64,000 nt of DNA from the NCBI RefSeq assembly GCF_020253525.1, contig NZ_JADCBK010000002.1:1-64000 (forward strand), in the 5' to 3' direction. The number at the start of each line of letters is the position of its first letter. Position 1 is the first letter of the stretch. Source of the DNA: Aquidulcibacter sp. (GTDB taxonomy: Bacteria; Pseudomonadota; Alphaproteobacteria; Caulobacterales; Aquidulcibacteraceae). The position numbers were made by a program, and so were the translations under genes. Below are positions 15,404 to 21,676 of the stretch, one piece after another. Below the pieces are notes generated by a model. It was not told the origin of the DNA, did no database searches, and saw only the letters and a list, made by a program, of their open reading frames with translations.

Positions 15404-17335
15404 CTAGCGCACGGGCCGGGACCCGATTCGGCTGCTGCCCGTCGCCGCGGGGGCGGGGCTTGCCTTGGTGGGGCTTGATTTGCCGCGTGCCATTTTGGCG
15501 GCTTTGGGCTCTTCTTCGAACAATTCGGCCAGCTTATCGACAATCGCCCCGCCCAATTGCTCGGCATCCACGATGGTCACGGCGCGGCGATAATAGCGCG
15601 TCACATCATGGCCGATGCCGATGGCGATCAACTCCACCGGGCTATAGTCTTGGATTTTGGCGATGGTGTCGCGCAAATGGCGTTCCAAATAGGCCCCCGA
15701 ATTGACCGACAAAGTGCTGTCATCCACAGGCGCGCCGTCAGAAATCACCATCAGAATGCGGCGCTGTTCGGGCCGGGCCAGCAGGCGGTCATGGGCCCAA
15801 TCCAAGGCTTCGCCATCGATGTTTTCTTTGAGAAGGCCTTCGCGCATCATCAGGCCCAGATTACGCCGCGCCCGACGCCATGGCGCGTCCGCACTTTTAT
15901 AAATAATGTGGCGCAGATCATTCAGGCGACCGGGATTGGCAGGCTTGCCCGCCTTCATCCAGCTATCGCGCGATTGTCCACCTTTCCAAGCCTTGGTGGT
16001 AAAGCCCAAAATTTCGGTCTTAACGCCGCAGCGCTCCAGCGTGCGGGCCAGAATATCGGCGCAAATGGCAGCAATCATGATGGGTCTGCCGCGCATCGAG
16101 CCCGAGTTGTCCAACAAAAGCGTCACAACCGTGTCGCGGAAGTTGGTATCATCTTCCATCTTGAAGGTGAGGGGGGCCAAAGGCTCGGTCACCACGCGCG
16201 ACAGGCGGGCGACATCGAGTACGCCTTCTTCCAGATCAAACTGCCAGCTGCGGTTTTGCTGAGCCATCAGACGGCGCTGCAAGCGGTTTGCCAAGCGGCC
16301 AACAACGCCTTGAAGCTGGGTCAATTGGGCGTCGAGATAGCTGCGCAAGCGGGCCAATTCTTCCCCGTCGCACAGGTCTTCGGCACCCACCGTCTCGTCA
16401 AAGGCCTTGGTATAGATTTTATAGGCAAAGCCATCGCCATCACCCGGTCTGAAGTTGGGTCGGACGGGCGTAGTGCCTTCATCGACTTCGCTGTCATCAT
16501 CATCAGACGAGTCACTATCATCAGCCTCGACGCGCACCTGCACATCTTCTTGCTCGCTGCCTTGCGACTCGCCGCGCTGGGTATCTTCCTGCTGCTCGCC
16601 GCCTTCTTCCTGCTGATCCTCATTCTGGCTGGGGTCGGGTGGGGGCTGGTCGGCGCCATCGGGCTCTTCGCCATCTTCATCAGACGGATCAGGTTCTGCC
16701 CCCAATTCATCGCCGAGGTCGAGGTCGCGGATAAGGTCGCGTGTTACTTCGGCAAAGGCCTTTTGATCGCCCAAGCGTTCAGTCAGGCGATCAATGGTCT
16801 CGCCCGCTTTGGCTTGCACTTCATCGCGCCACAAATCGGCAATACCGCGCCCGGATTCAGGGGGGGCAAGCCCGGTCAGGCGTTCGCGCAGCAACAGGCC
16901 CAAGGCATCGGCCAAAGGCGCGGTTTGCCGGTCGGTCATGCGGGCATAGCCCTTTTTCTCGCACGTCTCGACCAAAGCCGCGGTTAGGTTTTGTGCAACC
17001 CCCGGCATGGCCAAAGCGCCAATTGCCTCAATGCGGGCTTTCTCAGCAACTTCATACAGAGCACGCGCACGCGGGCCTTCGGGCATGGCGGCATTATGGG
17101 CCGCTAAATCATGGTGAGCGAGGCGTAGTGCGGCGGCATCGGCATGACCACGCAAACGCGAGACTTCTTGCTCACCCAAGGCGCGCGCCGGATGGGGCAA
17201 GCCAATACGATTGCCCGACACACTTGGCCCATCGGCAGAGAAGCTGACCTCCACCTCCTCAGTACGCGATAAAGCACGCGCCGTATGGGTGATCACACGT
17301 TTGAAAACGTCTTGAGGGGTTTCTTTGCTCGCCAT
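15404..17335 (-). CDS. cobT: Cobaltochelatase CobT subunit
   Basis: VWA MIDAS motif [14 protein letters not shown], acidic middle region, [57 protein letters not shown]. Confidence 0.96.
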
Positions 17336-17420
17336 AGTCAGACTGACATAAGCCGGAGCCGTAGGCCTGTCACGCCTCTATGTGCGTTGATTTCAGTGGG
17401 GGTGTTAGTTCAATTAACCG

Positions 17421-17876
17421 CTACGGGTGCGAAGCTGCAACTTGCTGCCTAAAAAAAATATCTATCAATCTTTCCTTCAATGCACGTCTACTGCCATTTG
17501 TAGCAGCTGCTGCCTCAATCATCACAATGTGGGAGTGAGCCGGTCCTTCACTTGGCTCGTGCTCCACTATAAATCGGCTGCCGCAATTGCCAACGATTCG
17601 GTGTATCTCGAAGTTTACTGCTTGCCAAAAGCCCCAATACTGGGTTGCGTTTCCTTTCGCAGACTTTGCACGCGCGGCTTCAAATCCTGAAGCGTGAACC
17701 CCTTGCGCTGTAGCAATTTCAACCCAATCAACAGATTCGTGACGCCTCAATTCTGGCGGGAATTTCGGGGTTGAAAAATGGAAAATCTCTTCAAATCGCC
17801 ACTTACCATTTTCACCCATATTGGGCGTATAAATTCTGCGAGCTAAAATATTGTCTTCTGGGATTGTCAGTTTCAT
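17421..17876 (-). CDS. Hypothetical protein, third gene of TIGR04255-associated operon
   Basis: ATG 17876, 5 nt after the stop of the preceding gene; A+T-rich; contains HEPSEGPAHSHIVMI. Confidence 0.7.
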   Translation of the reverse strand: MKLTIPEDNILARRIYTPNMGENGKWRFEEIFHFSTPKFPPELRRHESVDWVEIATAQGVHASGFEAARAKSAKGNATQYWGFWQAVNFEIHRIVGNCGSRFIVEHEPSEGPAHSHIVMIEAAAATNGSRRALKERLIDIFFRQQVAASHP

Positions 17877-17881
17877 CGATT

Positions 17882-18427
17882 TTAGCCCAAGATCAATGCC
17901 CGAACCTTGGAAGCGATTGATGTGGCACTTCCATCTAAAATATCTTCATGCTGCCATTTCCCATCTGATCTTGTAATGATGTACTGTGATTTTTCAGACA
18001 GACCGACGATTAGATGACGATTGCCAACTTCGCCCCAAAAAAAGTCGATTATCCCATCCCCGGCGAAAGAATACTTTGGCAATGCCGATAGGATAGGCAG
18101 ACTTTGTACAAAATTTATTACAATGGTTTTCGTACCAAGATCTAATTCTTTAAATTCCTCGATATCTTGAAAATCAGCGAATAAACTTCTCAGCAGATCG
18201 TCTCTTCCACTTTCCCAAAGCGTCCGTTCAAATTCATTATATTGTCTGTTCGCAAAGAAAATCGCACTTGGACGAACAAAATAAAATTGTGCGTGCTCCG
18301 TTGTTTGCCGGACGGGTAACTGAACCGATGGTTCAACAAGATTATTCCAAAGTGGAAGTTCGTTTAGCTGAGCAGTATGGGTATACGGAGAGGCGCTCGC
18401 TCCCCACCAGTCACTGTTGTTAAACAT
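17882..18427 (-). CDS. Hypothetical protein, second gene of TIGR04255-associated operon
   Basis: Overlaps the upstream ORF by 8 nt; C-terminal YSFAGDGIIDFFWGEVGNRHLIVGLSEKSQYIITRSDGKW predicted beta-rich. Confidence 0.72.
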   Translation of the reverse strand: MFNNSDWWGASASPYTHTAQLNELPLWNNLVEPSVQLPVRQTTEHAQFYFVRPSAIFFANRQYNEFERTLWESGRDDLLRSLFADFQDIEEFKELDLGTKTIVINFVQSLPILSALPKYSFAGDGIIDFFWGEVGNRHLIVGLSEKSQYIITRSDGKWQHEDILDGSATSIASKVRALILG

Positions 18428-19220
18428 GTCTGTAGGCTCCCCAAACCTCTATCCTGAATTTTTCAGATGTTACAGTGTTAAATTTCTCAGTTATCTGACT
18501 GTGGGCGCGATCAAACCAAGTTGAAATGCCTTTGTGATCAAGTGCTTCAGGTAGACCTCTAGCAATAAGCTCAAGCCGTACTTCGTGGCCTTCCATAGGT
18601 TGACGCGTTATTAATTGAATGCCGACATGGAGACGGCCATCGATGTCTTTGAGTTTAGAGGAAAATGTTTGCGACAAACCATCGATTTGTATTGGTAAGT
18701 TGATTGCGATCAAATCCTTTAAAAAAGGTATCGCTTCAGACAACCTAACAACTTCGCGATTTGGCGGAATTATGAGGTTTACATAAACCAACTCAACTTG
18801 GGTCGTCTTGGGCTCACGTCCAAATTCCGATAGCCAAAACTCCCTCAACGCACCCAGAATCCTCAAGAATTCGTCCAAAGCGCTTTCGAAGCTTGGATAT
18901 ACCGTTTTGCTCTCCGCGCGTCGCCAATTGAATACTAGTTTGCTATTTTGAAACTGTACCAGTTTAGATTGGTCCTTACTGATCATCCAAGCTCTAGGAA
19001 TCTCTACCTGCCCAGGGAAAAACATTTGCTGGGTGATCTCAGTACCAAACGGCCTCTCAATTGCAATTTCCATTGGTGGCTGCGTTAGAGGAGTTGGGTA
19101 ATCGTCTCTAAGGAACTCTGTGAACCTACCCAAATGCACTGCTTGAAAAGTCGGTTCCGGCTCAAATTGAAAGGCTATTGCCATTTCAGCCAGTGGGGAT
19201 GCTTTGTATTTCGTCCGCAT
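18420..19220 (-). CDS. TIGR04255 family protein (sporadically distributed, function unknown)
   Basis: N-terminal ASPLAEMAIAFQFEP; RAWMISKDQSKLVQFQNSKLVFNWRRAE...YPSFESALDEFLRILGALREFW...TTQVELVYVNLI matches the family pattern. Confidence 0.82.
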   Translation of the reverse strand: MRTKYKASPLAEMAIAFQFEPEPTFQAVHLGRFTEFLRDDYPTPLTQPPMEIAIERPFGTEITQQMFFPGQVEIPRAWMISKDQSKLVQFQNSKLVFNWRRAESKTVYPSFESALDEFLRILGALREFWLSEFGREPKTTQVELVYVNLIIPPNREVVRLSEAIPFLKDLIAINLPIQIDGLSQTFSSKLKDIDGRLHVGIQLITRQPMEGHEVRLELIARGLPEALDHKGISTWFDRAHSQITEKFNTVTSEKFRIEVWGAYRHV

Positions 19221-19383
19221 CGTGTCTGGGGTCCTCAAAGTCGTATTAAGCGCTCGCAATCGTATCACTGTTTAAGGAATGTTGTATACGGAAAACAGGT
19301 AAACAACCCTCTTATCTGACTCGGGTACATATAAATCTGGAATTGCTTAGCCTTATGCGGCTTACAAACAAACTTTCCAATAG

Positions 19384-19429
19384 TTCCAGAGCAGCTTTGC
19401 TGTGGGGAAATGGGTTTCCCTGTCTGGAA
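19384..19429. repeat. Small three-way-junction inverted repeat between fadB-like gene and the island operon
   Basis: Outer ttccaga/tctggaa enclosing cagc-ttt-gctg and gggaaa-tggg-tttccc. Confidence 0.6.
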
Positions 19430-19474
19430 AGGTAATGGCCCTCCAGCGTTTCTTTGCAAGAGGGCCTGATAAGT

Positions 19475-21676
19475 TTATGCGGCCTTTTTCGCGGCCTCGC
19501 CGCCAAAGCGGCCATAGAAGGTTTCGCCGTTTTTCGCCATGTCTTTCAAGAGCTTGTTTGGCTTAAAGCGGGGGCCGTATTTCTTGGCCAAGCGCTCGGC
19601 TTCGGCAACGAAATTGGCGATGCCAATGCCGTCCATAAAGCTGACTGTGCCGCCGGTATAGGGCGCAAAGCCCCAGCCGAGGATAGAGCCGATGTCGGCG
19701 TCGCGTGGGTCGGTGATAACGCCTTCCTCAAAGCAACGTGCGGTTTCCAGAGCCTGACGATAGAGAAGGCGGTTCTTATATTCTTTCACCATAGCAGGAT
19801 CTGCCTCGTGGATCTTGGTTGGCACGACCGAGGTCAGGCCCGGCCAAATCGCCTTGGTGCCGTCTTCCTTATAGTCATAGAAGCCCTTTTTGTTCTTGCG
19901 GCCAAAGCGACCAAGCCCTTCGACCATTTCTTCGATGATCAATTGGCTGGGCGTGGCCACCCATTTATTGCCCAAGTCCTTTTTGGTTTGCTGCGCGACC
20001 TTATAGGCAAGGTCGAGGGCTACTTCGTCTGCCATAGACAATGGCGGCACGGGCATGCCGGTCATGCGGCCCACATTTTCAATGATGGCTGGCTTAATGC
20101 CTTCGGCCAACATTTCTTGGCCTTCTTGCACATAGGTGCCAAAGCAACGGCTGGTGTAGAAGCCGCGGCTGTCATTGACCACGATGGGGGTCTTTTTGAT
20201 CTTCAAGACATAATCAACCGCCTTGGCCAAGGTTTCTTGCGTGGTCTTTTTGCCCATAATGATTTCAACCAGACCCATTTTGTCGACAGGGCTGAAGAAG
20301 TGCACGCCGATGAAATTCTTGGGCCGCTTGGATGCGGTGGCCAAGCTGGTGATGGGTAGGGTGGAGGTGTTGGAACCAAAGACTGCGTTCGGGCCCAACA
20401 TGGCTTCGGCCTTCTGGGTCACATCGGCCTTGATCTCGCGGTTTTCAAATACGGCTTCGATCACGAGATCCGACTTCTTGACATGGGCATAGTCGGTGGT
20501 TTGCGTGATGAGGGCCAAGACGGCATCGGCCTTTTCTTGGGTCATTTTGCCGCGCGAAACAGCCTTATCGAGCAACTTCTTGGAATAATCCTTACCCTTT
20601 TCAGCGGCTTCTTGGCTTTGGTCGATCAGGACGGTTTCAATGCCGGCCATCGCCTGCACATAGGCAATGCCTGCCCCCATCATGCCAGCACCCAAAACCG
20701 AGACCTTTTTGATCTCATATTTGTCAAAGCCTTGTGGACGGTTCGCACCTTTGGCGAGGGCTTGGGTCGACAAGAAGAGCGAGCGCACCATGGCCTTGGC
20801 CGAGGGGCTTGCCATGTTTTTCAAGAAATAGCGTGTTTCGATGCGCAAGGCCGCGTCGATGGGAACTTGCACGCCTTCAAACACCGCGCTCATGATCGCC
20901 TTTTGGGCGGGGTAATTGCCATAAGTGGTTTTCGACAACATAGCATTGCCGCCAACAAAGGTCATGCCGCCACCGGGGGAATAGGGGCCGTCTTTGACGC
21001 GATAGCCCTTAACGTCCCAAGGCGCGACCGCATTTGGATTGGCCAATACCCAAGCCTTGGCTGCTGCAACGGTTTCGCCGGCTGGCACAACGGCACCGAC
21101 GACACCCTTCTTCAAGGCTTCTTGTGGGTTCATGCTGGTGCCTTGCAACAAATGCGGCATGGCATTCATCACGCCAATGAGGCGTGGCAGGCGCTGTGTC
21201 CCGCCTGCACCGGGTAGCAGGCCGACTTTAGCTTCTGGCAGGCCGAATTGGATCTTTGGATTGTCGGCCGCCACGCGGTAATGGCAGGCCAAAGCGATTT
21301 CCAGACCGCCACCCAGTGCCAAGCCTTCGAGCGCACAAGCCACAGGCTTGCCGCAGGTTTCAAGCGCACGCAGCGAACGGTTCAGGCTGAAGCCTTGTTC
21401 GAACGACTTCTTCAGCTTTTCATCTTCAGAGAGATTCTTGTCGGCATCCATGCTGCCGCCACCGATTTCGCCAAGGTCAGCACCTGCGCAGAAACCATTG
21501 TCTTTACCCGAATAAAGCACGGCGCCTTTGATGGCATCATTGCCTTTAATCTCGGCGACCAATTCGCCCATTTCTTTCATCACGCCACCGGTGATGGTGT
21601 TCATGGTCTTGCCTGGAACATCAAATGCGATGTGCAACACGCCATCAGCATCGAGGTTGGTTTTGAAATTTTCCAT
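19475..21676 (-). CDS. Multifunctional enoyl-CoA hydratase / 3-hydroxyacyl-CoA dehydrogenase (FadB/FadJ type)
   Basis: ALEGLALGGGLEIALACHYRVA, GLPEAKVGLLPGAGGTQRLPRL, VSVLGAGMMGAGIAYVQAMAG, GVHFFSPVDKMGLVEII. Confidence 0.96.
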   Translation of the reverse strand: MENFKTNLDADGVLHIAFDVPGKTMNTITGGVMKEMGELVAEIKGNDAIKGAVLYSGKDNGFCAGADLGEIGGGSMDADKNLSEDEKLKKSFEQGFSLNRSLRALETCGKPVACALEGLALGGGLEIALACHYRVAADNPKIQFGLPEAKVGLLPGAGGTQRLPRLIGVMNAMPHLLQGTSMNPQEALKKGVVGAVVPAGETVAAAKAWVLANPNAVAPWDVKGYRVKDGPYSPGGGMTFVGGNAMLSKTTYGNYPAQKAIMSAVFEGVQVPIDAALRIETRYFLKNMASPSAKAMVRSLFLSTQALAKGANRPQGFDKYEIKKVSVLGAGMMGAGIAYVQAMAGIETVLIDQSQEAAEKGKDYSKKLLDKAVSRGKMTQEKADAVLALITQTTDYAHVKKSDLVIEAVFENREIKADVTQKAEAMLGPNAVFGSNTSTLPITSLATASKRPKNFIGVHFFSPVDKMGLVEIIMGKKTTQETLAKAVDYVLKIKKTPIVVNDSRGFYTSRCFGTYVQEGQEMLAEGIKPAIIENVGRMTGMPVPPLSMADEVALDLAYKVAQQTKKDLGNKWVATPSQLIIEEMVEGLGRFGRKNKKGFYDYKEDGTKAIWPGLTSVVPTKIHEADPAMVKEYKNRLLYRQALETARCFEEGVITDPRDADIGSILGWGFAPYTGGTVSFMDGIGIANFVAEAERLAKKYGPRFKPNKLLKDMAKNGETFYGRFGGEAAKKAA

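Follow-up and report, generated by a model that had tools for sequence, protein, structure and literature searches.

Three small genes on the minus strand of Aquidulcibacter sp. lie between a cobT-like and a fadJ-like gene, the names of the flanking genes being taken from a reading of their translations, and raise the question of whether they form a single mobile unit and what such a unit might do. The window, meaning the whole stretch of 64,000 nucleotides analyzed here, had received an earlier sequence-only reading that proposed a horizontally mobile module with a role in defence, stress or signalling, in which a TIGR04255-like protein is coupled to two unknown partners. TIGR04255 is the NCBIfam family sporadTIGR04255, of unknown function; the entry describes one protein, and the family is not mentioned in the main texts of the published papers searched.

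Gene Organization, Composition and Insertion Site

Gene 1 (18420..19220) encodes the TIGR04255 protein of 266 aa, and is followed by gene 2 (17882..18427; 181 aa), a candidate antitoxin or adaptor, and gene 3 (17421..17876; 151 aa), a candidate effector or toxin. All three are oriented on the minus strand, and the coordinates confirm the tight coupling first described for them, with an 8-nt overlap between genes 1 and 2 and a 5-nt gap between genes 2 and 3. Gene 1 starts with ATG, with an alternative in-frame GTG possible at 19268. The whole inserted cassette, delimited by the break in homology with genus relatives and by composition, spans 17401..19473 on the same strand, exactly filling the interval between cobT and fadJ, in agreement with the position earlier given between cobT and a beta-oxidation block. 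This 2.07 kb insert has a G+C content of 44.5% compared with 56.5% for the remainder of the window, with values of 0.44, 0.42 and 0.47 for genes 1 to 3 and third-position values (GC3) of 0.43, 0.38 and 0.41, as opposed to 0.58-0.66 in four neighbouring genes. It is the lowest-G+C stretch of its size in the window; none of 579 non-overlapping sliding windows of insert size is as low, the minimum elsewhere being 0.525. The foreign composition remarked on in the sequence-only reading is thus borne out.

All nine genomes of the genus contain cobT, and the sequence lying 5′ of the gene was compared across them. In six relatives homology to the window stops at approximately 17400 and restarts at approximately 19474, at the fadJ stop codon (window 17335-19475 compared with L065, L067, L068, L069, L070 and L071). 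The site between cobT and fadJ consists of just 105 and 108 bp in two of these genomes, holds a vapBC-like pair, identified by reading, in three (accompanied in one by an extra ORF), and holds a different ORF in the last. In the remaining two relatives fadJ does not adjoin cobT within the stretch compared. As the site is empty, occupied by VapBC or occupied by another ORF in relatives, it constitutes a small insertion hot spot in the genus, and the window cassette is one among several alternative occupants of it. The vapC gene is shortened in L065.

Within the genus, TIGR04255 is present in one genome of nine; at the level of the order it occurs in 14 of 299, and in the class and phylum samples in 20 of 385 and 24 of 299, respectively. 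The cassette is therefore accessory and not conserved at this position. Each of the 13 other cassettes in the order has a lower G+C content than the DNA flanking it, the mean difference being 11 points. Four of the 13 adjoin thiC (L021, L022, L027/L097 and L028), possibly making this neighbourhood another hot spot for insertion. Decayed cassettes also occur, with an in-frame stop in gene 1 of L085 and a shortened gene 3 in L043, as expected of accessory genes undergoing gain and loss.

Gene 1 Encodes a TIGR04255 Protein with a Predicted TBP-like Fold

The gene 1 product matches TIGR04255 with 81 bits against a cut-off of 30, over profile positions 1-248 of 252 (NCBIfam), so that what had been called TIGR04255-like is a true, full-length member of the family. 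It has no Pfam match. An AlphaFold2 model of the protein (pLDDT 90.8) has the order beta-alpha-four strands-alpha, then beta-alpha-three strands-alpha, resembling in prediction the two beta-alpha-beta-repeat-alpha halves of the TATA-binding protein (TBP) saddle. TATA-binding proteins are the top Foldseek matches of the model among PDB chains (E 9.5e-5, probability 1.0, TM 0.26-0.38); against a viral library the top match is a protein without a name (E 1.1e-7, TM 0.47/0.60), with TFIID-like proteins next. The likeness has limits: TM does not exceed 0.38 to PDB chains, gene 1 has no sequence similarity to TBP, and an internal repeat found no support at the sequence level, the two halves being unalike in profile comparison. 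A SecB-like identity was set aside, since SecB is absent among the best 50 Foldseek matches listed and TBP comes first. The fold of gene 1 is accordingly predicted to be closer to the TBP saddle than to SecB. Across 79 sequences, twelve positions are invariant (P9, E12, Q18, Q89, Q91, W99, Y108, Q141, E143, Y146, F247 and W260), most of which sit on or beside strands of the model and may form a candidate binding face.

Recurrence of the Three-Gene Unit

Single-sequence searches with genes 2 and 3 found no relatives. The orphan verdict that this implied was overturned by profiles built from TIGR04255 neighbourhoods, in nearly all of which two small co-oriented genes lie directly 3′ of gene 1. 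In a first set of 57 loci an adjacent gene-2 ORF is present in 52 and a gene-3 ORF in 48, in the order gene 1, gene 2, gene 3 and with frequent overlaps. A second set of 82 further loci was obtained by a pattern search using the alignment of the gene-1 subfamily, from taxa including Pseudomonadota, Acidobacteriota, Planctomycetota, Nitrospirota, Myxococcota and Chloroflexota; here the gene-2 profile matches directly 3′ of gene 1 in 78 loci and the gene-3 profile in 68. The exceptions inspected in this set are contig ends, broken copies and other partner types, with a few lacking a recognisable partner. Gene order is thus conserved across more than 120 loci, and the two families do accompany TIGR04255. 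The sequence-only reading's description of the partners as unknown needs amending, in that they belong to recurrent families that can be exchanged for unrelated pairs. Each of the three outcomes which that reading named as refuting it was looked for, and none was found: the partners co-occur with TIGR04255, the composition is foreign and the position is not conserved, which supports the proposal of a horizontally mobile module. A gene 2-gene 3 pair of the window's own family also occurs at L180 (1480-2279) with no TIGR04255 gene, a sign that genes 2 and 3 may be able to function on their own as a pair.

Gene 3 of the window belongs to a cluster of 27 gene-3 proteins and scores 43 bits against a family profile built without it. 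In an alignment of 67 members of this R / SVD / PxH family, R13, S48 and H114 are conserved. Its structure model is poor (pLDDT 62) and gives no Foldseek match below E 0.1, and on both grounds a weak likeness to KH domains and to the Prp protease was set aside; no nuclease motif was found. Gene 2, which carries the motif DG-x-x-x-x-x-W (DGIIDFFW), joins 28 other gene-2 proteins in a cluster of 29 (single linkage, E 1e-3). Its score against a profile built without it is just 11 bits, making it the weakest of the family assignments, and gene 2 may tentatively be placed as a divergent member of the gene-2 family. Neither gene 2 nor gene 3 has a significant match in Pfam, NCBIfam, PADLOC or PHROGs, and no toxin or antitoxin family was matched. 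None of the three window proteins matches PADLOC-DB 2.0.0 at E values up to 10, and 76 related gene-2 and gene-3 proteins give weak PADLOC matches at most (PDC-M32, AbiEii), which were disregarded.

Partner Exchange and Co-inheritance

In some TIGR04255 lineages the gene 2-gene 3 pair is swapped for unrelated pairs in the same positions. In one alternative the partner carries a T/S-Q-x-C-D motif and frequently follows a helix-turn-helix (HTH) protein; these HTH gene-2 proteins weakly match antitoxin models for Xre and MqsA. Other alternatives are proteins in which His and CATF Cys motifs are conserved, and DUF7689, which is not mentioned in the main texts of the published papers searched. At a single locus, L035, position 3 is occupied by a tightly coupled PemK/MazF toxin (67.9 bits); a search for the antitoxin identity of its gene 2 confirmed none.

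Partner type is structured by the gene-1 tree, requiring seven changes on it compared with 17.4 when shuffled, and the distances of genes 1, 2 and 3 are correlated (Spearman 0.38-0.60), none of 500 permutations being as high. The cassette behaves as a co-inherited unit in which the effector end is replaced now and then.

Several further observations concern the alternative gene-3 proteins. The T/S-Q/N-x-C-D motif appears in variants such as QTCDI, NTCDM and TQACDLE, with TIGR04255 upstream, at L018, L019, L025, L034, L036, L037, L041, L044, L054, L082, L159, L167 and L182-L186, and the proteins of this type that were scanned are unnamed by Pfam and NCBIfam. The His/CATF Cys proteins (L032, L033 and L075) resemble papain-like or NlpC/P60 peptidases by eye. 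A HEPN identity for gene 3 of L049 and L055, suggested by its sequence, found no support in Pfam or PDB searches and was rejected.

Plasmids, Viral Contigs and Neighbouring Genes

Seven plasmid records were returned by a reverse search that started from one of the alternative gene-3 proteins. All five plasmid loci inspected, from Rhizobium, Sinorhizobium, Sphingomonas, Kocuria and Chroococcidiopsis, have TIGR04255 upstream, and on a Mycobacterium plasmid the cassette follows mobF. The carriers in Rhizobium, Sinorhizobium, Kocuria and Chroococcidiopsis are conjugative or mobilizable plasmids, and some copies lie by relaxase or integrase genes. A copy detectable by the window-type gene-1 subfamily is present in one of 72,556 plasmid records, and most sampled copies are chromosomal and outside element contexts. 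Two putatively viral IMG/VR contigs (L095 and L096) contain complete cassettes, suggesting that some cassettes may travel with prophages; among annotated phages no relative of gene 1 was found.

The 148 nearest neighbours in the second set were compared with PADLOC and Pfam, with matches to DISARM DrmA and DrmD, DpdE, ZorD, a type I restriction subunit, mad2, mad3, AbiJ, Abi_C and integrases, while most cassette neighbours are ordinary chromosomal genes. These matches are suggestive of defence-gene enrichment near TIGR04255 loci, in a count made at cassette loci. Of the earlier proposal, mobility is supported, and a defence role is one possibility beside other accessory functions, no activity being assignable to gene 3. 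Vsr, HsdS and DUF262 proteins were also seen among the neighbours by eye.

Likeness to Known Systems

In toxin-antitoxin-chaperone (TAC) systems, SecB-like chaperones serve several toxin-antitoxin families (PMC5105189), and the chaperone of the anti-phage system CmdTAC acts as the sensor of a phage capsid protein (PMC11618068). The cassette is like TAC in having three small adjacent genes and a constant component combined with several unrelated pairs, and in being mobile. It differs in that the third component, gene 1, was examined for a SecB-like fold and is instead predicted to be TBP-like, and in that window genes 2 and 3 match no toxin or antitoxin, a PemK/MazF protein occupying position 3 in L035 only. 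Since a SecB-like component was not found, the analogy with TAC is confined to the logic of the system. Type II toxin-antitoxin systems (MazEF/PemIK, VapBC) share with the cassette small coupled genes, sporadic distribution and low G+C, and are linked to it by the L035 toxin and by the VapBC pairs at the window's chromosomal site in relatives; the cassette departs from them in having three genes and in that window genes 2 and 3 fall outside known toxin and antitoxin families. To the NCBIfam entry for TIGR04255 the present analysis adds a constant cassette of three genes in which the partners can be exchanged.

Possible Function of the Cassette

The three genes recur as a unit that is mobile, is inherited together and occasionally has its pair replaced. 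We tentatively read this unit, at somewhat short of even confidence, as a mobile three-component conflict cassette in which a toxin-antitoxin-like gene 2-gene 3 pair is combined with a constant gene 1. In this scheme the effector or toxin would be gene 3, with gene 2 as its antitoxin or other partner. Gene 1 would be a constant regulator-sensor whose predicted saddle might bind a partner protein, a nucleic acid or an invader-derived trigger. It would hold the complex of genes 2 and 3 inactive, and the activity of gene 3 would be released upon infection or stress, following the logic of toxin-antitoxin-chaperone systems with a third component of a different fold. The conserved gene order, MazF in L035, the HTH gene-2 proteins, the pair standing alone in L180, and the gene-1 tree and distance correlations argue for such a toxin-antitoxin-like reading, as do the plasmid reverse search, VapBC at the shared site and the DISARM, Dpd, Zorya, MADS, restriction and Abi genes near some copies. 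Against it, no toxicity or enzyme activity of gene 3 is known or predicted, MazF occurs at a single locus, the HTH matches and the family link of window gene 2 are weak, neighbours are mostly ordinary, and the cassette is absent from PADLOC. The broader proposition, that the cassettes constitute an undescribed modular immunity or toxin class of many phyla, in which a TBP-fold sensor-regulator is joined to unrelated effector pairs (R/SVD/PxH, T/S-Q-x-C-D, Cys-His and MazF), has a substantial chance of being right, though well short of even.

An anti-phage system without toxin-antitoxin logic, in which phage nucleic acid or protein is sensed by gene 1 and the invader is attacked directly by gene 3, with gene 2 serving as adaptor, would also account for the sporadic, low-G+C, mobile distribution and for the several copies adjoining known defence genes, and the predicted TBP-like gene 1 would suit nucleic-acid binding. 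We consider it unlikely, as the pair also occurs without gene 1 (L180), the swap for MazF and a small partner fits toxin-antitoxin logic better, and gene 3 has no nuclease motif. The conjugative or mobilizable plasmid copies and the relaxase and integrase neighbours would suit a cassette that serves plasmids or integrative elements in maintenance, transfer or regulation, aiding its carrier and not host defence; with most sampled copies chromosomal and outside elements, and so few plasmid records carrying the window-type subfamily, this explanation is quite improbable. A role outside conflict, as an accessory operon of metabolism or stress response, has a similarly low probability, if anything a little lower: it would agree with the lack of a known activity, the predominance of housekeeping genes among the neighbours and the cassettes near thiC, but very fast divergence, exchange of partner pairs, consistently low G+C relative to the host in the order, a site shared with VapBC and plasmid carriage all speak against it. 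That genes 2 and 3 are unrelated orphans lying by chance 3′ of a TIGR04255 gene, as the failure of single-sequence searches might indicate, is hardly credible in light of the gene-3 profile evidence and the widely conserved order.

Under the toxin-antitoxin-like reading preferred here, a gene 1 that regulated unrelated toxins would represent a second solution to the task performed by the SecB-like chaperone in TAC systems. TIGR04255, carried by approximately 5-8% of sampled phylum genomes and known only as sporadic, gains a three-gene context with exchangeable partners, and this defined context makes its function directly testable and brings with it several undescribed candidate effector families.

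The Leader of Gene 1

The low-G+C leader 5′ of gene 1 (19221..19473, minus strand) yielded no match exceeding expectation in a promoter search. It contains an imperfect 13-nt direct repeat (19234-19246 and 19253-19265, 77% identity) that may be due to chance, and is a possible operator.
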